DNA from: a virus | DNA length: 45,616 nucleotides | IMG/VR virus record: IMGVR_UViG_3300046171_000192 | Location: 1 to 45,616 of that record | Direction: 5' to 3' (one strand) | Shown here: one piece after another, positions 3,346-37,368 of the stretch | Layout of the letters: the number at the start of each line of letters is the position of its first letter | How positions within the stretch are numbered: position 1 is the first letter of the stretch | Made by a program: the position numbers and the translations under genes | Notes under the pieces: model-generated | The model's input: the letters and a program-made list of their open reading frames with translations, nothing else | The model's database searches: none | Told to the model about the DNA's origin: nothing

Positions 3346-3972
3346 ATGGATATGCTTACCCGCGCCCAAATCTGGGCGGACTTATCTAATATAGATGTAG
3401 CACCTTTCTGCACTGAGACTGAGATTATTGAGGATAAAGTCCTCACATATCTTCCTTGGATGAAAGCTCACGAAATTATGATGGGCGCATTTCCAGAATA
3501 TCACTGGGAATTTACCGAAGACCCTGACGGTCGTGAGTGCCATTACTTTAACGACGGTTCTGCCGAAGTCCGTTGTCGCATGACTATTGGTGGACAAACC
3601 AATATTACCTACCTTCCCGTTCACCGATCTGGGAAAGCCATAGACCAACCCTCAGCAACCGACATCAACACTGCTAAGCAGAGATGTCGTGTTAAAGCTA
3701 TGGGTGAGTTTGGTTTGGGCTACACCATGTGGATTAGTTCTCAAATAAAAGAAATAGAAGAAGCAGAAGAGCCAGTTGTTGAAGAGGTAAGTGAAGAAGA
3801 AAAGATTATAGAGGTCTGGAAACTCTGCAAGTTTGATGAAGCTAAGACGCTTTCACAGGCACAAAAGAAATACGACAAACTTAAAACTCAGTTAGCCAAC
3901 AGAGGTCTGACTGACGATGGTGTCTATTGGGCAAAGCTTTGTGAGCGGCGAGGATGGAGGGCTTCTAAATGA
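3346..3972 (+). CDS. Single-strand annealing protein, DUF1071/Sak3 (Rad52-like) type
   Basis: A 208-residue recombinase that should pair complementary single strands made by the adjacent exonuclease. The diagnostic DUF1071 pattern spans about 34-130: TYLPWMKAHEIMMGAFPEYH, then AEVRCRMTIGG, LPV, then ATDINTAKQRCRVKAMGEFG leading to LGYTMWI. The C-terminal third is acidic then basic and probably mediates contacts. Start ATG 3346 follows GGAGATATATAC; a second ATG two codons later is less likely. It overlaps the exonuclease by ATGA. Family assignment is good; activity is inferred from family and operon. Confidence 0.82.
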   Translation: MDMLTRAQIWADLSNIDVAPFCTETEIIEDKVLTYLPWMKAHEIMMGAFPEYHWEFTEDPDGRECHYFNDGSAEVRCRMTIGGQTNITYLPVHRSGKAIDQPSATDINTAKQRCRVKAMGEFGLGYTMWISSQIKEIEEAEEPVVEEVSEEEKIIEVWKLCKFDEAKTLSQAQKKYDKLKTQLANRGLTDDGVYWAKLCERRGWRASK

Positions 3973-8537: not shown

Positions 8538-11500
8538 TTAATTCTTAATACCTTTTTCAGCTTTCCTGTAAGCCTTGTTGTAAATGTCGAATATTTTGTT
8601 TTCATTTTCTAGCAGTTGTTCAAGTAACTCTCGGCGGCGTTTATCTGAAATATCCTGTCGCTCAACAATCTTTCGCGTTCTGGATATGTTTCTCAGATCT
8701 CTATTAGACATTTTGTACAGGCTGTTTTTACCGCCATCTATAACCGGAACAAATGACCGATACTTGACGCGAAGATCATCTAGCTCTGCTTGATCCGCTG
8801 CCTCTTTAAACTTAGCCTCAATCTTTCTGGTCTCATCCCAGTTTGCATAAAACTCAAACCGATCTTCATACTCAGAAGGGCTTTCAAAGAATGTTCCGAC
8901 AATAGGCAGGTCTTGCTTTCTAAAATCCTCATCAGCCATCATTCTTGACGCAACGTCCGACGACTGACTCACAAAACGTCCTACACCACCCAAGAAGTAT
9001 TCATACACATACTCCATCTTGTCTGGATTCATTGATATGTATCCGTCCGTGTACTTGTCTCCGCCTGTAGCATCATTTAAAAATTCTGCTGTTGCGGTAA
9101 ACGCTTTGTCTGTAGACCTTCTTGAGTTGTAAGCGTTGGATCTTTCAACAATAAATGAGTTCTGCTCAATATAAATATCACTACCAAAGAAATTTTTGTT
9201 AGCTAGCATATCTAAATGGACTTCAAGTAGGTCAGGATAAAAACCTCTCATCTGCTCTTCCCAGCTATCCCCGCTCGACGGGGGAACGGGAACAAAATTA
9301 AGCAGCATATTTTCCCAAAGATTGACGGCGGACTCTTCTGGTGAATTAATACCAAAAGCTAGCTCAGCACCTAATCGACCTATATTTGTAAAGAAGTTGT
9401 AACCATAGGGTGCTGGTAGAGCAAACCCTTCTTCGCTGTTATACATGAACAATAATGAACGATTCTTTGCATGTTCAGGCAAATCTGCATAAACCTTCTC
9501 ATCATCATCGTCATCTTCAGACATAAGAATATTTATAGCGGCTAATGTACCGCCCAAAGCAATCAGCCCAGCAGCAGTTTTTTGTGCTGTGGTGGCTTTT
9601 CCTGTATCACTACTTAGAGCTTGAGCTATGTTTACGTTACCCTGTACCGCAGCATTGAAGAACAAGAATCCTGCATTGACTACTGCGGTGTTCTCACCCT
9701 TGCGATTAAAGTTAACGGTCAGGTCTTTTGCTAAAGTTGCAGCTGTTTCTCTGTCAGTTCCAGCTTTTCTTGCCTCAACATATGCAGACAAACGTACAGA
9801 GTTCTCCATTGTGGTATTGAAATCTTCAACCCATTTACCGATAGCTCTCAACGCCTCTCTGGTATAACCTTTCTTCAATTTGCTTTTAAGAATTCTTAGC
9901 TGCTCGTCTTGATCACGAACTAACATCATTCCTGTAGATGCACCATCTTCCATAAACTCTGATGCGTACTGATCTAATGTGTTTTCTCGAACAGGCTTAC
10001 CGCGCATTACACGATACATAGATCTCATGGAAGGAAGATAACTCTCAGCCATCTTGCCAATCAGGTTCTCACCCTGAACTCTACTACCGAGCTTGTCCTT
10101 AGATGACAGGGCATACATAAGACCAGTCTGAACATCTCGCAACGGGTTAACTAATCCCCATGAGGGGTTATAGTTTATTAGCATGTTACGTCTAAATGTC
10201 TGGAACCTAGTTGCTAGGGTTAGCACTTTGCTTACGTCGTCGTTAGCCCTGCTAAGCATAGGCACGCTCATGTTCTGTAGTGCGTGATTTAAGCTGTCGC
10301 TTCTGAACTCAATAAAGAATGTCTGCCCACCCTTTTTAACCTCTACATACTTAGGGTCACCGTTAGGTCTAATATCCCTCGACATCTGATCAAGATCTTG
10401 CATGGTCAGTTCATCGCTAGGCTTAGGTGGTCTAAACTTATTGTTGTATATCGTGTATGAGTCGCTGTTACCTAGATTGCTTAAAAGATCTAATAAGGTT
10501 TGGGCGGTTTCATTTTTTCTCGCCCGAATAATTTTTCTCTGCACATCTTCAATAGCGGTAAATAGCGGATTTACAGGCAATGTCTTTCTGCCTTTAGCCT
10601 TCATGCTCTCGCTACCTACAATAGAGAAGCCTCTTGAAGAAGAGCTGCGAACGTATTTATCTCCATCTTCCTCGGCAGCAAAACCTTTTAAAGGAACGTA
10701 AAACTCATAAGTGTCTTCCCAATCAGCCTTTGATTCACCATCAAGCAAACCGGCTTCAACCATACGATCTCTCTGGAACTGAAGCATTTCGTATACTTTG
10801 TCGGCAATACGATCCATGTCTGCTTTAGTGCCTTCTCTTTCAGCTAAATTTAAAACGCTTTCAGCTTCAGCATATGTCATGCCGGAACCAGTATCCTGAA
10901 ATTGAAGCGGCAAGGTTTTGTATGACTGCAATTTTTCTTGCAAGTTAGCTATCTGAACGGTGTGATCTACCTCAACATCCTCTTGCAGTTTTTCTATCTG
11001 ACGCTCTGTTCGTAAAATGTTGCGCTCACGTTGAGCTTTTACTTTCTCAGCAATAACGTCATTACGCTCTGCCGCGTGCTTGGCAATAAGGTAGGTTCCG
11101 ACAGCATCTGGATCGACTTTTAGCTCAGCTATAAGGTCGCCCAAAGGGTCAACGTAATTTTCGTGGAAGGCATCAAGGTCATTTTGAATCTTGCCATGTG
11201 ACAAGTTTTCTTGATCTCTAGGTGATAAGCCAGCCGGAAGTCTACCCTTATCAAGGAAGTCTGCAGCTTGGTTTTCGAAATCTTCTAAAGGGGCATAACG
11301 ATCTACTAACGATTTATATATCTTCTTGCCTTTAAGTCTTCTAGCAAGATCGGACTGTCCGTCTATTTCGTCGTTGTAGCTAAATCGATTTGTTGAGGGG
11401 GTACCGTCGTCAAGAGTATTATTCTTGGCGTTGTTGATTTTCTTCTGAACAAAGGAAACTTCTTCTAGGGGTGAGTCTAACTCTTGTCTGGAGACATCGG

Positions 11501-14500
11501 TGTCGGGCTGACTTTGAAGAGTTCCTTCAAAAGTATATTCCCTTTGAGTCGCTTTTCTTCCAGCGTTTTCTTTGAGGATTTCGTCAAGTTTTTCTCTGTT
11601 AACTCCTTCTGCTTCATACCACGGGAATCCTTTGTCATATGTACTTACCTTGAAGTTTTTAGGTAAAACCCCTGCTTTTGGTTTTTTTATCTCATTTAAA
11701 AAATTTCTAAATTCATCGCGAGACAAGCGATAGGGTTCGCTCTTAGAATCATTATATATGAAATAAGGCTCTCCCGCCTCATCTCTTGCATAGATGGCTC
11801 CATAAGCAAACGTGTTTTGTTTTCCCTCTGGAGCACCCATAAAGGCATATGGGTCGGAATTACCCTCCATGTCTTTTACAATTCCCTGCATAGTTGGATG
11901 GGCTACCACCTGTCCCGAGTTTAATACCCAGCTCTCCCAATGATAGCGTCCGACAGAAGCGTCTTCCGGTCTGCCAATGGCTTCGTACAGCTGACCGACT
12001 TTTAGTGCTAGCGACTTCTCCATAACTTCATATCTAGCAACACCGTGAAGACCATTAAACTCGTCAGCTATATCATCATAAATAAGCTTTCCGTAACGAC
12101 CGGAATCCCACATAGTGTTTAGCTGTATTCGATCCAAGATAACCACATCGTCACGACCAGTCATCAACATAAGGAATGAAAACACCTTGTTATCAATTCC
12201 GGCATTTTCAAGCATACCCTGAAATTGACGCCGGACCTCGCTAGTTGGCGTGGACCTGTCTTCGATAAGATTGTGCAGCTTTTGAAGCTTGGACACACCC
12301 TGCTCATCAAGCTCTGAAAGCTTCAGCATCAACGAGCCAAATGCATTTGCGTTAGAAGTTCCTCCTTTACCAAAAGATCCTTGAGGTATTAGGTTTGGTA
12401 CTTTGTTACGCCACTCTGCTAGATCATCCTGAGTCATGTTTCCTTGCAAAGCTTTTTCTGAAAGCTCTGACACAGCATTGTTTTTGGTTAATAAGTCTAC
12501 AAAGGCGGCTTCTTGCGAACTTGCCGTTAACATGCGAGATAACATTCCCCAAAGCATCAGCTTAGAGGTATGCTCCGGCAAAGCGTTTCCGCTACCGTAA
12601 AGCTCTCCCATCTTATATGCTGTTTGTAGCCCTCTGTCTGCTGCCTCTATTTGCTCTTTAGTTAATCTAGAGTGCGTCTTAGCCCAGAGATCTATGTCGT
12701 TATATAAGGCTATTAAGCCGTGCGGCGGTCTAAGAGTTTCATTACTTCCGGTCAAATCTCTTTCAAATGCCAGCCAGCTATCCACTGAATCTAAAGCGCT
12801 TGGGTGTCGATCAACTAAATCTTTTAATAATGGCAGCTGAGCATCAGCATTCTTGGGACTAATGACTTTTGTAATCGCAAAGTTTGGTTTTCCTTTTGCA
12901 GATTTTTCCCTTACATCACCCTCAGAAGTCTGTAGTAAATACTCTGCACCCTTCTTAATAAATAAAGGATCATCCAGATCATCATTAGCAAGTCGATCAA
13001 ATTCTGCCTCTTCGGCAATCATGCGCTCGTCTGCTAAACGCTCTTCTTCAATAAGCTTTACCGTCTCTGGATTGACAATGAAGTCGCCATCCATCTCAAA
13101 GATATCTGCCGCTTCTTTGGGGGTGCCGAAGCCATCTGGTTCGTTGTCTAGTAATCTCTCCACAAGATTATCAAACTGATTGTCTTCAAGTTTCTTAAAC
13201 TTTTTCCGTAGGTCAGTAAGCTTGAGCTTACCTTCTGGGCTGTCTACGATTAGATCGTAACCCTTGCTGTAGGTATCAAAACTAACCTCAGGCTCTAAAG
13301 GGGTGTTAAAAGAATTTTCTCCCGCCGAAACTAATTTTTCGCGGTGGTCAATGATTGTCTGAAGAGCCTCTTTTTTGGTCGTGCCAAGATCAGCATCAGC
13401 GATTTTGCCGTCAATAGACCGATAATAAACATCATCATCACCGGATTCCCTGCCTTCGCTTGCATCCTCATCAAAGTAAATCTGATAACGATCACCGTCT
13501 GGGAATGTGACTATCTGAGTACCGGTGCTTTCCCAGTTCTCAGCTTTTTTAAATGTCGGCTTTTTACTACCTAGTTTTATTGTTACGGGAGTGTCTTCAA
13601 CAGGCTTCATGTTCCTAAACGTGGAGACATCGCGATTGTCACGAAGATCTATGCTTCCAGATAGGTAACCTTCGCTATATATTCCTCCGCGAGAATCACT
13701 GTTATCGTCTAGCTTGAAGCTTAAACCGTTTTTGTTCTGGTAGCCGTCTCTATAACCCTCAACAAATATCTTTCTGTTTTCTTCTGTGTAATAACCGTTC
13801 TTAGTGCCGAGCTTGCCCTGCGCTGCAGTATAAAGGCGATTACCTAGTGTCGTCTGTTCAGAAACAGTAAGCCTTTTTACATTAGGTTTTTGTACATCTG
13901 ATCGTTCACGTTGCCCAGTTTCTTCTTGGACCTGTCCCGCCACTGGGGTATCGGCTGTCCCGTCTCCAGTGCCTGCTTCGCCATCTGATCCAGCTGATTC
14001 AGGCTGTACGACCTCGACGCTTCCGGACTCTGGCGGTGCCCGAACTTCTCCTGATATGCCTTCAGGTTGGGAGGTGTCTGGGGTGCTGATACTAGTCGGC
14101 GCTTCATCGTTTACCTCTACTGCTTGTGCAGTCTGTAAGTTATTGTCTCTTATTTCTTTTATATAATTATACGCCTGCGGTGCAAGCTCTTGTAGTTCTT
14201 TTGGATTAGAGTGGAACAGCGCACCTAACTGAGCGAACACTTCCTCTCTCATTGTTGAGTTTACTTTAGCGTTATCTTTTTCAGGATCTAATATGTGAGC
14301 CTGAAGATCGTTAAATGGATAATCAAAGCGCTTACCTAATGCAGTACCTTGCTCCCAGTTGTCGTAAATCTCTTCCATGATGTCGCCCATAACCACTGTA
14401 GGCTCATCAATAGATTCGTCAATCTGTATGTTAAATCGGCTGTCTTTATCACTTAGCCCCATAGAAAAATCGGCAGCATGATAAATCTCGTGAGTCATTG

Positions 14501-16529
14501 TCCAAGCCAACTCACCCAGCATGTCTTGACCTGTCATAGATCCATTAATTAAGTCTTCATTAACAGATATGCCCCTAGTCTGTTTTCCTGTAAGTGCTGG
14601 CGCATCTATCTCGATTTCTTTATGGACGTAAACGCCTGACACTTGATCCATAAACGATGTAGGAACACCGTTTGCAGACAGGTCAGCCATAACTCCAGCT
14701 AGAGCATTTGTCGCATCCTCTGCACGATCACCATAAGCCTCATCTATAGTAGGAAGACTTTTTCCTTTAGGCTCTTGCGTAGTTGGAATTTGGATTGAGT
14801 CGTTGCGGTCAAATATTCTATTAATGTCATCTTGATCTATAGCCTCTACAACAATATCTGTATTGTTAGGATCTAAAGCTTCTGGACTATTAGCCTTTAC
14901 TGATAGATCTAAAAGCTGTTCCTGTATTGGCTTTTCAGCTGGAGATATTTCTGCATCCCATCTATGGTCAGATCCAAACTCTCTCTTGCCTTGAGGTACA
15001 GCTCTTCCTCCAAACATAGGCGATGAAGAAAAGTCTGTAACTATATCTGCCTGAGGAGCTTGAGGGGAGGGAGGTAATGTATTTTCCCCGAACTCTTTAT
15101 TTTCTTGATCGACCGCAACTTTAGAAACTTGAAGCGGATCAGCTTTAGCGTCAACCTCAGGAACTTCAATCTGAGTCCCGTCATAATCTGTTAGCTCAGA
15201 TAGCCCAGCCTCTCTGCGCTCTGCGTTTGATAAGGGAGGGTTGTCATCAAGGAATGAGGTGTCACCAACATCTATAGTGGTTCGACCATTTCTTGCATTA
15301 TTTTCTGCTTCAGAAAACATCTCTCTTATTCGAAGAGCAAACTCAGGGTCATTTACTGACCTTGTTCGAACCTCTTTAGCGTCGTCGCCTAACTTAACAT
15401 CTTGACTATAAGCGCCGGTCGCACCCTTAAAAGCACCGCCTACTGAACCAGTAACGCCACCAAATAAAAACCCTGCTGCTGCCGATTCGATTAACGCTCC
15501 GCGCTTTCTTTCATTACTTAGATAATCAAAGTATTCTCTTTGTTCATTATCGCTGTAGTTGTTGTTGACATAAGAGATTATCTCTTCCTCAACAATTAAC
15601 TGTAATGCTTCGGTGCCACCCTCTACTCCCATTTGAGTTGTTGCGTCTTTTACAAACTGACCAACCCATGCAGGTTTATCATTGACAGCTCCTGAAATAA
15701 ACTCACCAACCTCATCCGCTTTTCCTTTAGGCAAAAACTTATTAAGTGCTGTAAAAGCAGGGATGGCATTTAAAGCACCTATTGTTAAACCAGAAACAGC
15801 AGCTGCGACTGGAGCTTCTTCGCCTGTCTCCTCTAACGTTCTGGAAAACGTGCTAGACGCTCCCTGCTGTGTTCCATAAAGAACTGCCCCAGCAGTTGCG
15901 CCTCTAGTCGTTAACTTTGCAACTTTATCTGCTGCAAATTTATCCGCCATGTTTCTTGCAATCTTATCTGCCGCTTGTTTTTCGAGACCTTCCTTAAGTA
16001 AGCGATCTGAAGCTTGTTGAGCCAGCGTGTCCGCCATCTCTCCAACGCCCTTCTTTACAGCCTGCTTTGTTACTAATCCACCAACTCCACCTGTAACCGC
16101 CATTCCAGCTAAATCCGGAACAACTGAACCCAAGGTATAAGCAGCCCATGCACCAAAGTCTGTAGCGCTGTCTATATCTTGAAAGGTTACGTCAGGGGCG
16201 TACTGCTCTGCTTCTTTGGTTTGCTCTTGGTAATACTCCATGCCCTCTTGAACATATCTATCACCAGCATCTTTCAGGCTTTCAGAGTCAAAAAATTCTC
16301 CGGCGCCTCTTACCGCAGTTCCTGATAAGGCTTTAAGCCCTCCACCGAGAGCCTGCATATTATCTATACCGCCTTTTAGACCGCGAACAAAATTACCGTC
16401 ACCTTCTGGTTCCAGTTCTGGTTGTGAGACTTTTACGGCACCCGACTTAAACTTTTTTGGGTTATTTTCCCCGTACAAAGAATCCCAGTATTCATCTTCA
16501 GTCTTTTTGCGACCTGAGGTTAAGGGCAT
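8538..16529 (-). CDS. Giant polyvalent internal virion (ejection) protein with HExxH and LPD38-like region
   Basis: A 2663-residue protein, probably carried in the capsid and injected, in the place of T7 gp16. Visible regions: N-terminal Gly/Ala-rich hydrophobic stretches (about 130-165 and near 350) suited to membrane passage; HEIYHAAD at about 680-687, a zinc-metallopeptidase motif with a preceding hydrophobic helix; an acidic linker near 750-830; a central conserved-looking domain about 1230-1600 (DDVVILDRIQLNTMWDSGRY, then GRPEDASVGRYHWESWV); and about 1870-2340 a region like large-polyvalent-protein domain LPD38, including INYNPSWGLVNPLRDVQTGL, then ENSVRLSAYVEARKAGTDRE and a hydrophobic helix before EDDDDDE. 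The C-terminus is Arg/Lys-rich and helical. No lysozyme domain is evident. Confidence 0.85.
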   Translation of the reverse strand: MPLTSGRKKTEDEYWDSLYGENNPKKFKSGAVKVSQPELEPEGDGNFVRGLKGGIDNMQALGGGLKALSGTAVRGAGEFFDSESLKDAGDRYVQEGMEYYQEQTKEAEQYAPDVTFQDIDSATDFGAWAAYTLGSVVPDLAGMAVTGGVGGLVTKQAVKKGVGEMADTLAQQASDRLLKEGLEKQAADKIARNMADKFAADKVAKLTTRGATAGAVLYGTQQGASSTFSRTLEETGEEAPVAAAVSGLTIGALNAIPAFTALNKFLPKGKADEVGEFISGAVNDKPAWVGQFVKDATTQMGVEGGTEALQLIVEEEIISYVNNNYSDNEQREYFDYLSNERKRGALIESAAAGFLFGGVTGSVGGAFKGATGAYSQDVKLGDDAKEVRTRSVNDPEFALRIREMFSEAENNARNGRTTIDVGDTSFLDDNPPLSNAERREAGLSELTDYDGTQIEVPEVDAKADPLQVSKVAVDQENKEFGENTLPPSPQAPQADIVTDFSSSPMFGGRAVPQGKREFGSDHRWDAEISPAEKPIQEQLLDLSVKANSPEALDPNNTDIVVEAIDQDDINRIFDRNDSIQIPTTQEPKGKSLPTIDEAYGDRAEDATNALAGVMADLSANGVPTSFMDQVSGVYVHKEIEIDAPALTGKQTRGISVNEDLINGSMTGQDMLGELAWTMTHEIYHAADFSMGLSDKDSRFNIQIDESIDEPTVVMGDIMEEIYDNWEQGTALGKRFDYPFNDLQAHILDPEKDNAKVNSTMREEVFAQLGALFHSNPKELQELAPQAYNYIKEIRDNNLQTAQAVEVNDEAPTSISTPDTSQPEGISGEVRAPPESGSVEVVQPESAGSDGEAGTGDGTADTPVAGQVQEETGQRERSDVQKPNVKRLTVSEQTTLGNRLYTAAQGKLGTKNGYYTEENRKIFVEGYRDGYQNKNGLSFKLDDNSDSRGGIYSEGYLSGSIDLRDNRDVSTFRNMKPVEDTPVTIKLGSKKPTFKKAENWESTGTQIVTFPDGDRYQIYFDEDASEGRESGDDDVYYRSIDGKIADADLGTTKKEALQTIIDHREKLVSAGENSFNTPLEPEVSFDTYSKGYDLIVDSPEGKLKLTDLRKKFKKLEDNQFDNLVERLLDNEPDGFGTPKEAADIFEMDGDFIVNPETVKLIEEERLADERMIAEEAEFDRLANDDLDDPLFIKKGAEYLLQTSEGDVREKSAKGKPNFAITKVISPKNADAQLPLLKDLVDRHPSALDSVDSWLAFERDLTGSNETLRPPHGLIALYNDIDLWAKTHSRLTKEQIEAADRGLQTAYKMGELYGSGNALPEHTSKLMLWGMLSRMLTASSQEAAFVDLLTKNNAVSELSEKALQGNMTQDDLAEWRNKVPNLIPQGSFGKGGTSNANAFGSLMLKLSELDEQGVSKLQKLHNLIEDRSTPTSEVRRQFQGMLENAGIDNKVFSFLMLMTGRDDVVILDRIQLNTMWDSGRYGKLIYDDIADEFNGLHGVARYEVMEKSLALKVGQLYEAIGRPEDASVGRYHWESWVLNSGQVVAHPTMQGIVKDMEGNSDPYAFMGAPEGKQNTFAYGAIYARDEAGEPYFIYNDSKSEPYRLSRDEFRNFLNEIKKPKAGVLPKNFKVSTYDKGFPWYEAEGVNREKLDEILKENAGRKATQREYTFEGTLQSQPDTDVSRQELDSPLEEVSFVQKKINNAKNNTLDDGTPSTNRFSYNDEIDGQSDLARRLKGKKIYKSLVDRYAPLEDFENQAADFLDKGRLPAGLSPRDQENLSHGKIQNDLDAFHENYVDPLGDLIAELKVDPDAVGTYLIAKHAAERNDVIAEKVKAQRERNILRTERQIEKLQEDVEVDHTVQIANLQEKLQSYKTLPLQFQDTGSGMTYAEAESVLNLAEREGTKADMDRIADKVYEMLQFQRDRMVEAGLLDGESKADWEDTYEFYVPLKGFAAEEDGDKYVRSSSSRGFSIVGSESMKAKGRKTLPVNPLFTAIEDVQRKIIRARKNETAQTLLDLLSNLGNSDSYTIYNNKFRPPKPSDELTMQDLDQMSRDIRPNGDPKYVEVKKGGQTFFIEFRSDSLNHALQNMSVPMLSRANDDVSKVLTLATRFQTFRRNMLINYNPSWGLVNPLRDVQTGLMYALSSKDKLGSRVQGENLIGKMAESYLPSMRSMYRVMRGKPVRENTLDQYASEFMEDGASTGMMLVRDQDEQLRILKSKLKKGYTREALRAIGKWVEDFNTTMENSVRLSAYVEARKAGTDRETAATLAKDLTVNFNRKGENTAVVNAGFLFFNAAVQGNVNIAQALSSDTGKATTAQKTAAGLIALGGTLAAINILMSEDDDDDEKVYADLPEHAKNRSLLFMYNSEEGFALPAPYGYNFFTNIGRLGAELAFGINSPEESAVNLWENMLLNFVPVPPSSGDSWEEQMRGFYPDLLEVHLDMLANKNFFGSDIYIEQNSFIVERSNAYNSRRSTDKAFTATAEFLNDATGGDKYTDGYISMNPDKMEYVYEYFLGGVGRFVSQSSDVASRMMADEDFRKQDLPIVGTFFESPSEYEDRFEFYANWDETRKIEAKFKEAADQAELDDLRVKYRSFVPVIDGGKNSLYKMSNRDLRNISRTRKIVERQDISDKRRRELLEQLLENENKIFDIYNKAYRKAEKGIKN

Positions 16530-28550: not shown

Positions 28551-31500
28551 TTAAGCTGTTTGATAGGTAAAACTAAAATTAAAGTACGCATTAGCCGGAG
28601 GTGCCGCGCCATTTGTTGCCTTTATAACAGCCGTAGTTGCATTGTTGCCAACACTAACAAACACACTTACTCCTGTTTGTGCGACTTCTTGACCAGAACC
28701 ATTGCCTGATTGACCACCTAATACACCAACAGCAAAAGGTAAAGTCATACTGTAAGACGTTGGTACTGTTCCTGACGTTGGTACATAATGGGATGTAACT
28801 GCAACATTAACTACTCTACCAACTTTTGTATATGTACCAACATTTGTACCTGTTACAGTACCAGCAGTACCTCCACCGGCTACAGTATAAGTAGGCGTAA
28901 AAGTTCCCTCCTCATAGTCATCTAACTTATTAGCCGCGCCTGTACCGCCTAGGTAGACACCGCCTGATAGGTAGAGGTCTTTAAAGCGATAGTTAGTCTC
29001 ACCAATATCTACGGTGTTATCGTTGACGGTTCCTGATCCACTTGTCGGATATATTTTTCCAACTCCAGAGTCAAACCTAAGTCCAGTAGCACCCCCTGCA
29101 ATGTAAAGGTCATCACCACCGACAACGCCCACACCGCCCACAAATGCCCCTGCCTTTCTAAGGCTAATAATTCTGCCGTCTGTACCCATTCTATTGAGAT
29201 ACAGGCACTCGCCACTGTCTACGGCACTTTGAACTTCTCCACTAGCCCTAAGATCTATGCCACTACCGCTAGAGTTATTAAAAACATTTGTGTCAGTAGT
29301 CCCCACAAGCAAATCACCGCCAGCCGTCAGCATCATGTTGGTCTGAGGTGTGGCAGTGTTTCCTGCTGTACCTGCTGGAGCAGTAGCCCAATAGTGTATG
29401 CCGTTAGTTATTTGATAACTACCGACTGCTACAGAGCTGACAGAATACTTGTAGGTTGATGCCGCGTCCCAAAATAAACCAGACATAAAATGAGTATCTG
29501 CCGCACCTCTACCTGTTATGCTTGAGCCAGAATTACCAATTTCTAGAGATTTATAGTGTGAAGCTGAAGGAACAACACCAATACCCACCGACCCTGATGA
29601 GTCTATGGTTATGGCTTGTGAATTGTTTACATAGAACAACATCTTATCTACGGAGTGCGAATACTCAATTCTTCCTACATAAGCGGCTGATCCTGCAGTC
29701 CCGTCAGCAAAGAATATATTGCTTTCTCCGCCACCATATATTGTCATCCCTTCTGAACCACTACCGCTACCAATAACTAAATTATTAGCACCCGAGTTAA
29801 ACGAACTAGCAATAGCGTTACCAATACCCACGTTGCCTGAATTATCAATCGTCATAGCAGTCGTCCAGCTTATTGCTGAGTCTGCTGATCCAGACGGTGC
29901 AACTTTAAATAAATGAGTACCAGCATTTTGAAAATACTGAGATGCTTCATCTGTTGCAATGTACGACTCTTGATTGCTTGAGTTTATGTAAGAGTTTGCG
30001 CTGAGATAAGTACGTGAAGGATTTACTGTATTTCCCGCAAATGATGCACCCAGACCAACTTGTAATACGTCAACAGTTGATAGCCAAGTTTCTGGAACCA
30101 CACCAATACCCACGTTGCCTGATGAGTCTATTCTCATGCGTTCTGTTTGAGACGCAATTTCAGATGCACCAGTTGTAAAGGTAATACCGTCATAACCACC
30201 AAGATTTAGATAGTTACCTACACCTGCATAAGCCCCTGCCGCCCCACGCCAAATTCCTACGTTAGCGCCAGTAGAGTTAATATCACCTAAAGACAACAAG
30301 CCTCGTCCGTTGTCATCACCTAATTTTGCATTGCCTGACACTTGTAAAGTCGTTGAAGATTTAAGAGTAACTGGTGTGCAACCAATACCCACGTTGCCAG
30401 CGGTATACATGCTTCCATCACCGTTAACGTAGTGGGTGTAAGTGTTACTTGTTGTGCTTCTTACTAAATAAGTAGAACCACCATCTGCAAGAGACATAAT
30501 GGCTTCGCTACCGTCTATATAGCCTCCTGCAACATTCACACTTGTGCTTGTTTTCTTCAGTAATAGAATGCCGCCTGATGTGAGCCTTGCGCGTTCTTGT
30601 GATGCTGTTCTGAACAATAGATTTTCTGAACCACCCATAGTTCCAATAACACTATCACCGCCTTCAACACCAATGAGCTGTAATCCGCTAGTTCCAAACG
30701 TCCCAATAACGTGCTGACCATTGTTTGATTGAACAATACTGCCATTGACTGAAAGTTTGGCTCCTGAGTATGCCGAACTAGTGCCAATACCCACATTCCC
30801 TGATGAGTCTATTCGCATGCGTTCTGTGCTGTTAGTGCCAAAACGCATAAAGTTACTGCCACCATCATTTTGAGCATAGGTAATAAAACCAACGCCCGAA
30901 ACGCTATCACTAAATCTAATAATACTTTCAGCACCACTAGCTTCTGGGGCTTTTAAATCTAATACTGCATCTCCACCTCCCCCTGCTTCTATTGTTGCAG
31001 TTGCAGTAGTAGTGCTTTTAATATGTAACAATGAACTAGGCGCAGTGGTGCTTCCCACCATAAGGGAGTTGTACACGTTAAAATGACCTGACGAACCATC
31101 GAACATAGCAATCGCTTGCTGTTTGCCGTTGCCAATTCTTAAGTCTCTAAACTTCGTTGTGCCACCTTGATAGCCTTCAAAGTTAATCCAAGTGGAGTGG
31201 TCATCTGAATTTGCATTCCAACCACTACTAAATGAATTACCTACGCTATCTCTAAAGTAACCATTGCCACCATCGAGGAATGTAGTTCCGTCTATGGTCA
31301 CTGCCCCGCTGAATGTGCTTGCCCCTGCATCGCTTATGACTAATGGAAAAGTGTTATCAGTCACATTGCGTATAACAAAGCCGTTGTTTGTTACACCTGA
31401 CTGTCCACCACCTATAGCATACGTTTTTGCGCCCTGTGTGTTTGTAAAGGTTGTGTGTGCTTGTTCGCCAGTTGCTGTAGCTCCTGTAATAGCTATTTTC

Positions 31501-33749
31501 CCACTAGCTCCTCCACTGCCTGTACTCACGCTACCTGAGAATGTGGCGGCTTGAGATGTACCAGCTAGTCGTAAAGCTTGTGTAGCAGTTGAACTACCAG
31601 CCGTGTAAAAAGTTATTCCTCCGTTGTCGGAAGATACAATATCGCCTACTGTGATTTTTGCGTGATTAGCGTTGCCGCTACAACTTTGTAGTGTTGCTAC
31701 TCCAGTAGCTCCACTGCTTCCAAATATAGTTGGGGAATACAAAGCTACACTTAAATGAGCATTTTTAAACCTCGCGCTGGTACTACCTAAGTCAATAGCA
31801 TTATCCCGAATACCGCCCACGCTATTTGCTGGTAGCACAGATGAACCGTTGTAAAACAAAATGTTTGAATCGGCTGTACCTATGAAAAGGTCTCCACTCG
31901 CTGTGCCTATCGTGCCGTTGTATGAAGTACCAAATAGAATTTTGCCAGAGGTAAGACTTAAGTCTCCTGAGAATGTGGCGTTTTGAGAGGAGTCTAATGT
32001 TAGAGCCTGTGTGCCTGTTCGTGTTGTTGTATTTGCGGCAGTATTAAATGTTATTTGAGTAGCGGCATTATATTGTGAAGAAGCACCGCCTATATCTATT
32101 CTATTAAGTGATGAGTTTGCAAAGTATTGTAATACCTGAAAACCTTCTGTTTCTGTTCCAGAGTCGTATTGACGGGCTAATAAATGTCCCTCTTTATTAG
32201 TATTGTCAGTATTGTTGTTGGCAAAAGTAAAGTTTTGGTTGGCTGTAATTGAACCTGAAAAAGTGGCGTTGCCATTAGAGGCTATAGATAAATATTCGCT
32301 TAGACTATTGTTAGCATCTACTTGTCTGCCGATTGAAAATCTGTGGTTTGTGCCAATTCCCATCTGCCAGTATTTTTCATTAGTGCCACCAGTTGAACGA
32401 GTAAAGGTTTGGTATACAGAATTAGCACCACCTGAATTCAGTTCAAATTTAGTTGTAGGAGCAGTGGTGCTTCCCACCATAAGTGATGAGCCAATGCTGA
32501 CGTTGCCTGTATTTGAAATAAGCATATGACTAGCATTATCAGAGCCGCCTAAATATAACCCTGAATAAGATGATATGTTTGCATTTTGACTGCCGCTGTT
32601 TGCAGAGCGTATTTTAATAAATCTGCCATTAGTGTCGTCAACCATCACCATTGCGCCACTACTATTTTCTACATCTAAAGTAGCACTAGGCGAACTAGTT
32701 CCAATTCCCAAATTTCCGCCAGTATTAAAATAGCTGTCTGAGTTAGCGTTTGATCCAATAAGAACATTAAGATTACTGCCGTCATACAATCTTAGCGTGG
32801 CGGCATCAGTAGATTGCTGATGTATCCATGCTATGCTATTACCACCGCTCCCTTTTAATAATATGCCGTTATCGTTTCCAGATGATTTCACTTCCAACGT
32901 GTTTGAGGGAGCAGTGGTGAAACCCACACCAATTTTGCCATTGGGGATGTTGACGTTTTGTGATGAACTAATTGTTAAGGCGTCAGAACCATTTGTTGCG
33001 ATTTTTACATAGTTAGATGCATTTGAACCAATGATGTAGTTTGTACCACCGCCCCACTCCAACTTGTAACCATCAGAAAGCCGTGGGTGAGACAGATTAA
33101 AATAGCTTCGGTTTCCACCACCATCTACAGTAAGCCCATCGGCTACAACTGAGCCTGTTACGTCTATGCCTGTGGAGGTGGTGGCTAGTTTGGGTGCATT
33201 GTTATAAAAGAGTTTTACTTCTGCTCCATCGTTGCCATGTATAAAGTCTTTTGTGTTGTCTGCGTTTCCAGCACGAAACTCATTAGCATTTATGTATAAG
33301 TTGCCGTAACCTGAATCAACGATATAACTGTTGTTGCTATCATGGTAAATCTGTAAGTCAGAGCCAGCACCAAACTGTGCCTTGACGTTATCGCCAAGTG
33401 ATAGGTTGCCTGTCATCGTATCTCCAGATATGGAGACAGATTCTGTATCACCTTGAGTGCTTAGATCGTTTAAAGATGCAGCCGTAACACGCAACGCAAC
33501 TTCATCACCGGAAGAATGGCTAATAGCAGACGTACCGTCTTGCGCCCGCTGAATGGTAAACGTGGTCCCAGAAACACCTGTTACCTTGACAATTTCAGAT
33601 CCCGAATCAATACCTATTGTCGCGTAGAAATAATCGCCACTCCCAAGAGTTGGGAATAGAGAAGCGCTGGTAACACTAATAGACGTTGCTGAGTCAGAAA
33701 CGCCACTAGCCAGCGTAGTGCTAGCTAGGTTCGAAAACTTAATCGCCAT
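28551..33749 (-). CDS. Long repetitive tail fibre (1732 aa)
   Basis: Fibre built of beta-rich repeats. It has an N-terminal attachment region (MAIKFSNLASTTLASGVSDS, then SGSEIVKVTGVSGTTFTIQR), then at least seven GNVGIGT-type turns (GNLGIG, GNVSIG, GNVGIGT, GNVGIGV) and several ATFSGS-type turns spread over about 1400 residues. The C-terminal domain starts at about KLDDYEEGTFTPTYTVAGG, a fibre end found in many marine phages. No S74 auto-chaperone motif is visible. DNA repeats persist in places: a 23-base identical stretch occurs at 31042-31064 and 32461-32483, which would allow recombination between repeats. Start ATG 33749 after GGAG. Confidence 0.85.
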   Translation of the reverse strand: MAIKFSNLASTTLASGVSDSATSISVTSASLFPTLGSGDYFYATIGIDSGSEIVKVTGVSGTTFTIQRAQDGTSAISHSSGDEVALRVTAASLNDLSTQGDTESVSISGDTMTGNLSLGDNVKAQFGAGSDLQIYHDSNNSYIVDSGYGNLYINANEFRAGNADNTKDFIHGNDGAEVKLFYNNAPKLATTSTGIDVTGSVVADGLTVDGGGNRSYFNLSHPRLSDGYKLEWGGGTNYIIGSNASNYVKIATNGSDALTISSSQNVNIPNGKIGVGFTTAPSNTLEVKSSGNDNGILLKGSGGNSIAWIHQQSTDAATLRLYDGSNLNVLIGSNANSDSYFNTGGNLGIGTSSPSATLDVENSSGAMVMVDDTNGRFIKIRSANSGSQNANISSYSGLYLGGSDNASHMLISNTGNVSIGSSLMVGSTTAPTTKFELNSGGANSVYQTFTRSTGGTNEKYWQMGIGTNHRFSIGRQVDANNSLSEYLSIASNGNATFSGSITANQNFTFANNNTDNTNKEGHLLARQYDSGTETEGFQVLQYFANSSLNRIDIGGASSQYNAATQITFNTAANTTTRTGTQALTLDSSQNATFSGDLSLTSGKILFGTSYNGTIGTASGDLFIGTADSNILFYNGSSVLPANSVGGIRDNAIDLGSTSARFKNAHLSVALYSPTIFGSSGATGVATLQSCSGNANHAKITVGDIVSSDNGGITFYTAGSSTATQALRLAGTSQAATFSGSVSTGSGGASGKIAITGATATGEQAHTTFTNTQGAKTYAIGGGQSGVTNNGFVIRNVTDNTFPLVISDAGASTFSGAVTIDGTTFLDGGNGYFRDSVGNSFSSGWNANSDDHSTWINFEGYQGGTTKFRDLRIGNGKQQAIAMFDGSSGHFNVYNSLMVGSTTAPSSLLHIKSTTTATATIEAGGGGDAVLDLKAPEASGAESIIRFSDSVSGVGFITYAQNDGGSNFMRFGTNSTERMRIDSSGNVGIGTSSAYSGAKLSVNGSIVQSNNGQHVIGTFGTSGLQLIGVEGGDSVIGTMGGSENLLFRTASQERARLTSGGILLLKKTSTSVNVAGGYIDGSEAIMSLADGGSTYLVRSTTSNTYTHYVNGDGSMYTAGNVGIGCTPVTLKSSTTLQVSGNAKLGDDNGRGLLSLGDINSTGANVGIWRGAAGAYAGVGNYLNLGGYDGITFTTGASEIASQTERMRIDSSGNVGIGVVPETWLSTVDVLQVGLGASFAGNTVNPSRTYLSANSYINSSNQESYIATDEASQYFQNAGTHLFKVAPSGSADSAISWTTAMTIDNSGNVGIGNAIASSFNSGANNLVIGSGSGSEGMTIYGGGESNIFFADGTAGSAAYVGRIEYSHSVDKMLFYVNNSQAITIDSSGSVGIGVVPSASHYKSLEIGNSGSSITGRGAADTHFMSGLFWDAASTYKYSVSSVAVGSYQITNGIHYWATAPAGTAGNTATPQTNMMLTAGGDLLVGTTDTNVFNNSSGSGIDLRASGEVQSAVDSGECLYLNRMGTDGRIISLRKAGAFVGGVGVVGGDDLYIAGGATGLRFDSGVGKIYPTSGSGTVNDNTVDIGETNYRFKDLYLSGGVYLGGTGAANKLDDYEEGTFTPTYTVAGGGTAGTVTGTNVGTYTKVGRVVNVAVTSHYVPTSGTVPTSYSMTLPFAVGVLGGQSGNGSGQEVAQTGVSVFVSVGNNATTAVIKATNGAAPPANAYFNFSFTYQTA

Positions 33750-33758
33750 TTATGGCTC

Positions 33759-34205
33759 CTAGCTAGCTGTAATTGTCCACGTTATGGAAAGACTATCCGT
33801 ATTTGCCTTGTTTATAATCGAGAATACCGTTCTGCAAAGCATTGTTCCGCCAGAAGATGCATTCAAGATTGCTGCCTCAACAACACCAGCAGCAGAGGCA
33901 GGTGTTCCAGCTGGGAACGTCGCCACATAAACAATGTCGTTTCCTGAAGCTGTTGTGCTAGTTAAAGCAACTCTAGCAACCTCAGAACCTAACGTAGTAT
34001 TTCCAACCGCAGCAGCGGTGCTAGATGTACCAATAGCCATGTGACTCATAACGCTAGCTGATGTTCCAGCCATGCGAGAAGCAACAAAGGTCTTACCGGT
34101 AGTAACAACCAAATTGGGAATTTCTTGTGTTTCTTTTACGGTGCCATTCTCTGCTATTAGGTTAACAGTCAGGCGCCCTTTTAATTTAAGATCATCAACG
34201 ATCAT
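33759..34205 (-). CDS. Structural protein before tail fibre (148 aa)
   Basis: Beta-rich protein: MIVDDLKLKGRLTVNLIAEN, PNLVVTTGKTFVASRMAG, SVMSHMAIGTSSTAA, and a final strand pattern FSIINKANTDSLSITWTITA. The T-G-K-x-x-x-A-S-R-M and H-M-A-I-G-T motifs are common in short phage tail proteins near fibres. Start ATG after GGAGACCTACC. It is the first gene after the internal promoter and structured leader, so it and the fibre may form one transcript. Exact role unknown. Confidence 0.62.
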   Translation of the reverse strand: MIVDDLKLKGRLTVNLIAENGTVKETQEIPNLVVTTGKTFVASRMAGTSASVMSHMAIGTSSTAAAVGNTTLGSEVARVALTSTTASGNDIVYVATFPAGTPASAAGVVEAAILNASSGGTMLCRTVFSIINKANTDSLSITWTITAS

Positions 34206-34237
34206 GGTAGGTCTCCGAATTAATCAGCATTCAATTC

Positions 34238-34270
34238 TAAAATTGCCGAGTATTCTTAAAAACCGGCAAT
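34238..34270 (-). terminator. Weak terminator or attenuator hairpin in leader
   Basis: Stem ATTGCCG/CGGCAAT with a 15-base loop, then TTTTAG. A rival pairing AATACT (34273-34268) with AGTATT (34254-34249) uses overlapping bases and would prevent the first, so the two forms are mutually exclusive. The T tract is short. Confidence 0.4.
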
Positions 34271-34371
34271 ACTGAACTGTCAGATTTTCCTATCCATGAA
34301 GACAGCGTAGATACGTCTTGTAGCTTTACTATATATATAGCTGACTTCGACGCATAAAAGTCATTAAATCT
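34238..34371 (-). ncRNA. Candidate structured leader RNA or small RNA
   Basis: RNA expected from the strong promoter just upstream. Three stems in order: ATGCGTC with GACGTAT (34355-34349 with 34317-34311, one G-U pair) enclosing the palindrome CTATATATATAG (34329-34340); CTGTC with GACAG (34305-34301 with 34281-34277); and ATTGCCG with CGGCAAT (34270-34264 with 34248-34242) followed by TTTT. The total is about 134 nt if termination occurs at the last hairpin, or a leader of about 165 nt if not. No canonical start gives a protein of useful length here. No known RNA family recognised. Confidence 0.4.
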
Positions 34372-34377
34372 CTTACC

Positions 34378-34406
34378 ATTATAGGCGCTGAAAGAGTATT
34401 TGACAA
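34378..34406 (-). promoter_or_regulatory. Strong internal late promoter (sigma70-type)
   Basis: Minus strand: TTGTCA (34406-34401), 17-base spacer, TATAAT (34383-34378). One mismatch in the -35, perfect -10 and optimal spacing, in the only 235-bp gap of the structural block. Predicted start near 34371. Confidence 0.72.
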
Positions 34407-34440
34407 AGTAAATAATTCCTGCTCAGCGCTTCAATTGTTA

Positions 34441-35397
34441 CTAGGCATTTAATACCATATTGCCCATTAAGGACTTGTTAAGAACAGAGCTTGTTATTAA
34501 GTGATCAAACTCTAACGTTTCTGTTAGTCCTATTACGTTTGTTTTAACACCTTCAACATCTTTATCTATTTGAGCAAAATCATCTAACGTAAAGAAGTCT
34601 TGAAGTGTCTTGCTTACAACAAATGATGAGATGTCCTCAGAGACTGTCAATGAATCTGAAGGCTCACCTGTAACAGTTACAACACCAGACAGTTCGTTAA
34701 AGACAAAGTTATTTGGCTGTCTTGTTATTGTTAAATTATCAAGAATAAATGCAGGCTCTGATATTCCCTTACCTACATTAAATGTCTGTGACTCACTAAA
34801 TGACTGTGTATCGAATATTCCTTTATTGGGGTGAGTAGTTGTTTCATCCGCAAAATTAAAATTATCAGAAGTAGCTTTACCAAAGCTTACCGCATGAGCA
34901 TCAACCACGCTCACAGGGCTGTTAAACTGTCTTATAAATGTAAGAAGAGTGTGTACGTTTTCAGTAAATGAAAAATTATCTGATGCTAATTTACCCACAG
35001 AAAACGTGTTTACATCTAGCAGGCTGACAGAATCTTGTTCAACTTTACCGGCATGAGTTCTGGCAAAGTCAGAAAAGCTAAAATCATCTGATAAAACTTT
35101 ACCGACAACAAATACAGGATCTGCAGAAAGGAAGCCGACTTGATCTGAAACCGATTTGGTTACTGCGAATACAGCAGCATCATTAAATGCAAACTGATCA
35201 TCAAAGAGGTAAATAGTTCGTTCAGCGTTAACGTGAACATCATGCAGATATAAGTTTTTCCAATTAGCAACCGCGACCAGTTTCTGAAAAGAAACCTGAT
35301 TGCCAAGTGCTGGAACTAATGAGGCATCAATACTTAAATTGCGATGCGTTGCAGTAGCGTGTACTGATCTAAAACTTACAGTCGCTCTGATAGCCAT
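34441..35397 (-). CDS. Repeat-containing structural protein (318 aa)
   Basis: After an N-terminal part (MAIRATVSFRSVHATATHRN) come imperfect repeats of about 36-38 residues marked by V-G-K-x-x-S-D-x-F-S-F: FVVGKVLSDDFSFSD, FSVGKLASDNFSFTE, SFGKATSDNFNFAD, FNVGKGISEPAFIL, FVVSKTLQDFFTLDD. Such alternating polar and aromatic strands suggest an extended beta fibre or a sheath-like accessory. No known domain. The ribosome site is weak and it follows the BppU-like gene closely. Probably a minor tail or fibre-connector protein. Confidence 0.6.
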   Translation of the reverse strand: MAIRATVSFRSVHATATHRNLSIDASLVPALGNQVSFQKLVAVANWKNLYLHDVHVNAERTIYLFDDQFAFNDAAVFAVTKSVSDQVGFLSADPVFVVGKVLSDDFSFSDFARTHAGKVEQDSVSLLDVNTFSVGKLASDNFSFTENVHTLLTFIRQFNSPVSVVDAHAVSFGKATSDNFNFADETTTHPNKGIFDTQSFSESQTFNVGKGISEPAFILDNLTITRQPNNFVFNELSGVVTVTGEPSDSLTVSEDISSFVVSKTLQDFFTLDDFAQIDKDVEGVKTNVIGLTETLEFDHLITSSVLNKSLMGNMVLNA

Positions 35398-37343: not shown

Positions 37344-37368
37344 AAAAAGGGGGAGGAAAACCTCCCCC
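37344..37368 (-). terminator. Terminator after major capsid gene
   Basis: Perfect 8-bp stem GGGGGAGG/CCTCCCCC with a 4-base loop (37349-37368), followed on the minus strand by TTTTT (37348-37344). It lies 17 bases after the coat stop and would cut transcript levels between abundant coat and scarce tail genes, as in many phages. Confidence 0.87.

Follow-up and report, generated by a model that had tools for sequence, protein, structure and literature searches.

A conserved pseudoknot and anti-Shine-Dalgarno hairpin in the leader of a phage tail-fibre gene, and their possible role as a translational switch

SAM-II and preQ1-II are translational riboswitches built with a pseudoknot. Among DNA phages, pseudoknots that control translation are rare: the leader of T4 gene 32 carries a 5′ H-type pseudoknot, 67 nt upstream of the ribosome site, that acts as a translational operator, and a 2010 review that knew of gene 32 only believed it to be the only viral pseudoknot in translational autoregulation (PMC3014915). 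In T4 genes e, soc and I-TevI, intramolecular pairing masks the Shine-Dalgarno (SD) sequence and the transcripts of one promoter are kept silent (PMC3014915). The put RNA of phage HK022 consists of two stem-loops, acts on RNA polymerase at early promoters and is present in two copies per genome (PMC9378689). Here we describe a leader in front of tail-fibre genes of uncultured phages that shares traits with each of these systems.

The window, i.e. the whole stretch of 45,616 nucleotides analysed (IMG/VR virus record IMGVR_UViG_3300046171_000192), has a gap of 235 bp between a stop at 34441 and an ATG at 34205 on the minus strand. About 26 kb of same-strand genes lie downstream of the element found in this gap. 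In the direction of transcription, the features are:

34441..35397, minus strand: 318-aa upstream protein with an early end (tail GNMVLNA-stop)
34206..34440, minus strand: gap with a frameshifted remnant of the 3′ end of the upstream gene; the same region is open in relatives
34401..34406, minus strand: −35 hexamer TTGTCA; Leu-Ser codons TTG TCA where the region codes in relatives
34378..34383, minus strand: −10 hexamer TATAAT after a spacer of 17; predicted transcript start at ~34371
34358..34363, minus strand: 5′ arm of helix S1, TGACTT (covariation)
34349..34353, minus strand: 5′ arm of helix S2, GCGTC, inside the S1 loop (covariation)
34342..34347, minus strand: 3′ arm of S1, AAGTCA (covariation)
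34313..34317, minus strand: 3′ arm of S2, GACGT, 31 nt beyond GCGTC (covariation)
34276..34306, minus strand: hairpin P3, GCTGTC, loop, GACAGT; the most conserved part
34298..34303, minus strand: anti-SD GUCUUC in the P3 5′ arm and loop; exclusive with P3 and the best leader window here
34242..34270, minus strand: hairpin P4, ATTGCCG/CGGCAAT; clade-specific, missing from L027/L047
34211..34216, minus strand: SD GGAG plus AC, complementary to the P3 arm (from sequence)
33759..34205, minus strand: 148-aa tail-fibre-associated protein, the gene behind the leader (phrog_5417, 3e-23; phrog_4176 tail fiber protein, 2e-7)
28551..33749, minus strand: 1732-aa tail fibre protein, the next operon gene (phrog_8469 tail fiber protein, 7e-24)

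Using the 148-aa protein as query, we found 80 IMG/VR loci and read 220 nt upstream in each. In most loci, the upstream gene spans the element, and its terminal GNxxLNAD-stop, or a variant of it, leaves 9 to 17 nt to the start codon of the fibre gene (hereafter coding relatives). In the window, L003-L008, L027-L030, L043-L047 and others, it ends early (GNMVLNA-stop) and is followed by frameshifted remains (hereafter non-coding relatives). The upstream protein is built from repeats and ranges from ~230 to 560 aa across relatives with an unchanged C-terminal tail; its gene (window 34441-35397 and relatives) has apparently had its 3′ end exchanged or duplicated on the upstream side of the element. 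Elsewhere in the window, a strong terminator-like hairpin with a T-tail (37349-37368, minus strand) stands directly 3′ of the major head protein gene, as one does after that gene in G004 (L263). The fibre genes might for this reason benefit from a second promoter, which we offer as a suggestion only. A 2663-aa protein (8538-16529, minus strand) contains an LPD38 domain (Pfam, 1e-30) and is a large polyvalent virion protein.

The preliminary description had reported a near-perfect sigma70 promoter, and this holds in every part: TTGTCA (34406-34401), 17 bases (within the 16-18 of sigma70 promoters) and TATAAT (34383-34378) on the minus strand, a match of 11/12. Two promoters scoring at least 11/12 occur in the window against 0.83 expected, which, taken alone, is not above chance. 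The predicted fold of the 134-nt RNA in the window has a z-score of −1.67 (14 of 200 shuffles are equally good), and that of the leader up to the start codon −2.98. Such window statistics (promoter count and fold z-score) are not decisive by themselves, and the significance comes from the relatives.

About 65 of the 80 loci have the promoter before the same 148-aa fibre gene. TTGTCA-17-TATAAT is retained in the clade of the window and the −10 hexamer in wider relatives; TATAAT or GATAAT stands at the same site in every knot-bearing relative, and the outgroups keep the −10 with a weaker −35. Among non-coding relatives, identity reaches 94% in the −35 region (TTGTCAAA) and 93% in the −10 (CTATAAT) versus 42% in the spacer. 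In coding relatives, the −10 is formed by the codons ATA ATN, and the first Ile codon is ATA in 20/20 genes versus 33% elsewhere in those genes, the sequences being related and the trials hence not independent. This conservation supports the earlier proposal of a host-type promoter within the late block, and we regard it as a sigma70-type promoter of predicted activity. Six outgroups (L053, L055, L057, L066, L073 and L077) keep TATAAT upstream of the 148-aa gene and lack the knot, the site of which holds other short inverted repeats (e.g. AGCGATTACC/GGTAACGCT in L055). L010 has two promoter-like copies at ~3480-3800, one within the coding 3′ end and one before the knot, which suggests a duplication of the 3′ end of the gene.

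The RNA behind this promoter had been described as three successive stems. The inverted repeats are present, but the first 'stem' belongs to an H-type pseudoknot as its second half; the other helix, S1 (34363-34358 with 34347-34342), had been missed, so that the fold is a pseudoknot followed by P3. The pseudoknot was first recognised by eye from an alignment of relatives, in which S2 occurs as GCGTC/GACGC, GTGTC/GACAC, ACGTC/GACGT and GCGCC/GGCGC. In a MAFFT alignment (A2), 93.6% of cells pair versus 28-44% with the partners slid, and double changes occur at 10 pairs. With registers set per sequence, paired cells number 247/280 for S1, 204/210 for S2 and 208/210 for P3. We assessed the pairing with (i) a phylogeny-aware null, in which column substitutions were re-placed randomly on the gene tree of the downstream gene with per-sequence registers (S1 registers were hand-set for eight sequences), and none of 1000 simulations reached the observed pairing and double changes of S1, S2 or P3; and (ii) a permutation test that maximises the register identically for true and swapped partners, which gave 0/2000 overall and 0/2000 for S1 in non-coding loci alone. 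Both pseudoknot helices thus covary across an uncultured phage group, and two findings that would have refuted the preliminary description, namely a lack of compensatory changes and an element absent or unstructured in relatives, were looked for and not obtained. The structure lies on the sense RNA because wobbles in S2 and P3 are G-U (28 cells) rather than A-C (1 cell). The knot is not indispensable, as L043 lacks it and keeps the promoter and P3.

The 5′ arm and loop of P3 (GUCUUC, GUCUCC or GUCCCC) are complementary to GGAGAC of the fibre gene. Among 12-nt leader windows, the P3 arm is the best or in the top 10% of anti-SD sequences in 25 of 26 sequences (on average, 2.9% of windows are better), whereas in six outgroups that have no P3 the corresponding segment is outdone by 11-70% of windows. 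The anti-SD strand is mutually exclusive with a conserved hairpin, the arrangement of a translational-switch leader. The complementarity is mostly invariant, with covariation of its own in one lineage only (L056), one mismatch in the L009-type clade (CCC) and absence in L136. Predicted SD accessibility averages 0.18 versus 0.29 for shuffled leaders, in folds that cannot represent the pseudoknot; unconstrained folds, with the same restriction, often use the pairing between P3 arm and SD, and nested folding, which ignores the pseudoknot, puts P3 0.5-9 kcal/mol above alternative folds. At minimum energy, the leader of the window folds with its start codon masked by CAUGGAUAGG:CCUACCAUG, a pairing that we rejected because L003 is the one other sequence to have it.

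Conserved among the sequences compared are the promoter, the pseudoknot, P3, their position, the sense strand and the complementarity to the SD. From this we infer promoter activity, an ON/OFF exchange and its trigger. The reading that we favour, and give about an even chance, is a host-sigma promoter combined with a translational switch that acts in cis on the fibre genes. That the full copies found lie before the 148-aa gene, one per genome, speaks for a role in cis. Located where the upstream structural gene ends, or in the remains of that 3′ end, the promoter would start a short leader RNA that runs on into the fibre genes; the 5′ region of this leader would fold into the pseudoknot (S1 + S2) and then P3. 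With P3 formed, the ribosome site would be free (ON); with P3 opened, its 5′ arm would pair with the SD and mask the site (OFF). The pseudoknot may set which fold wins, via the order of folding or the binding of a phage or host factor. Transcripts of an always-available promoter would in this way be kept untranslated at the wrong time, e.g. in the lysogen. Where the upstream ORF spans the element, translation of the long late mRNA may unfold it, and transcripts of the internal promoter would then be the main target of the switch. The proposal makes it a testable question how temperate phages with a host-type promoter among their late genes avoid tail-fibre production in the lysogen.

Alternatively, the nascent pseudoknot and P3 could bind RNA polymerase and cause read-through of the long tail operon, i.e. 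put-like processive antitermination, which we consider unlikely. The structure starts near the transcript 5′ end, like putL behind its promoter (PMC9378689), ~26 kb of same-strand genes follow, and a T7-type RNA polymerase was not seen in these phages in a search that had no positive control. However, each phage genome has a single full match to a covariance model built from S2 and P3, located before the 148-aa gene and away from the operon head; put consists of two stem-loops of ~70 nt, unlike a pseudoknot plus hairpin; Rfam has no family above the gathering threshold for the leader; and the conservation of the anti-SD would be left unexplained. G002 and G007 show a weak second model match (39 bits), which corresponds to a paralogous repeat of the protein lying 219 nt upstream. 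Pattern scans of IMG/VR DNA for P3 returned contigs of the same phage family, and the element was matched neither in cultured phage DNA records nor in a prophage search of bacterial genomes; protein relatives in a Neomarinimicrobiota MAG and a Nitrospina MAG lack it.

The internal promoter could instead produce a trans-acting phage small RNA, possibly in the lysogen, with the position before the fibre genes incidental. The near-consensus promoter, the compact conserved fold, the persistence of the element without an overlapping protein and the temperate nature of the phages, which follows from an integrase in 11 of 12 records, are consistent with this. Against it, (i) no terminator is conserved after P3 or P4; (ii) P3 is only ~30 nt from the ribosome site in L027/L047; and (iii) its arm is complementary to the SD of the phage itself. 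We hold a trans-acting RNA to be improbable. The terminated small RNA of ~134 nt that had been predicted has no conserved 3′ end in relatives, because the T-tract, four T only and unlisted in the terminator scan, is not conserved, and the last hairpin (P4) is wholly absent in L027/L047. On the same grounds, and because AGTATT/AATACT is broken already in the nearest distinct relative (L003), an attenuator with exclusive pairings is unsupported. The switchable structured leader before the fibre genes that was proposed at the outset is supported; its ATTGCCG/AATACT switch is not conserved, and the exclusive pairings found here are P3 and the anti-SD. Pseudoknot-programmed frameshifting was likewise set aside, since the upstream ORF either stops before the knot (non-coding lineages) or reads straight through it (others) and needs no recoding, and so was an antisense gene, the antisense frame not being open across the element bar three short loci.

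The pseudoknot and hairpin could also merely protect the 5′ end, stabilising the fibre mRNA or serving RNase processing with no switching. The structure is close to the predicted 5′ end and the remaining leader is variable, but such protection needs neither a conserved P3 loop sequence nor an anti-SD, and we find this explanation quite doubtful.

The overlap with the upstream gene provides a view of selection on the element apart from the protein. In eight coding relatives, synonymous variation occurs in 3 of 35 codon columns of the element versus 36 of 69 nearby (Fisher p = 6e-6). In non-coding relatives, islands of identity coincide with the 5′ part of the knot (64%), the S2 3′ arm (89%), P3 (86%) and the stretch from SD to start (84%), versus 30-43% between islands (35% between P3 and SD). 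On the gene tree, the non-coding lineages nest within coding ones in about three places (the window group; L010/L017/L031 beside coding L037; and L038), which makes the loss of coding a derived state, probably reached more than once: the frame was lost in the lineage of the window and, probably, two others, while promoter, knot and P3 stayed. A dual-coding regulatory RNA would here have outlived the reading frame that hosted it. That the element is a by-product of the repeated protein, with Leu-Ser and Asp-Ser codons giving complementary words and TTG-TCA and ATA-ATN resembling a promoter by chance, is highly improbable, for although the arms lie on repeat motifs (ASK, DA, LS and SDS) in coding relatives and the paralogous repeat in G002/G007 matches the model weakly, lineages that have lost the frame retain arms, promoter and P3 with compensatory changes, synonymous sites are frozen, and the fold is missing from outgroups that have this protein too.

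More tentatively than the switch itself, we propose that these leaders may form an undescribed class of phage regulatory RNA, in which an internal host-type promoter is combined with a pseudoknot translational switch that senses a signal of phage or host, arose within a coding gene and became free-standing after frame loss. Compared with HK022 put, the leader is likewise a structured temperate-phage RNA immediately behind a sigma70-type promoter, but it departs from put in fold and copy number (a pseudoknot plus hairpin, in a single full copy in the late region). It shares a pseudoknot and putative SD masking with SAM-II and preQ1-II, whereas Rfam recognises no aptamer in it and its gene is structural and has no metabolite link. 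As in T4 gene 32, a 5′ H-type pseudoknot lies upstream of the ribosome site in a phage mRNA leader. Unlike gene 32, which encodes a single-strand DNA-binding protein that binds RNA, the gene here is tail-fibre associated (phrog_5417 and phrog_4176), belongs to temperate phages, follows a host-type promoter and has no known binding protein, and its leader adds a conserved hairpin with an anti-SD and overlaps an upstream ORF. The proposed masking of the SD by intramolecular pairing resembles that in T4 genes e, soc and I-TevI, where, however, a T4 late promoter inside the structure removes the 5′ strand; here, the promoter is upstream and its transcript would hold the whole structure. By analogy, the leader would work like T4 gene 32 in its pseudoknot and like the gene e type in its SD masking, and it is a member of neither.
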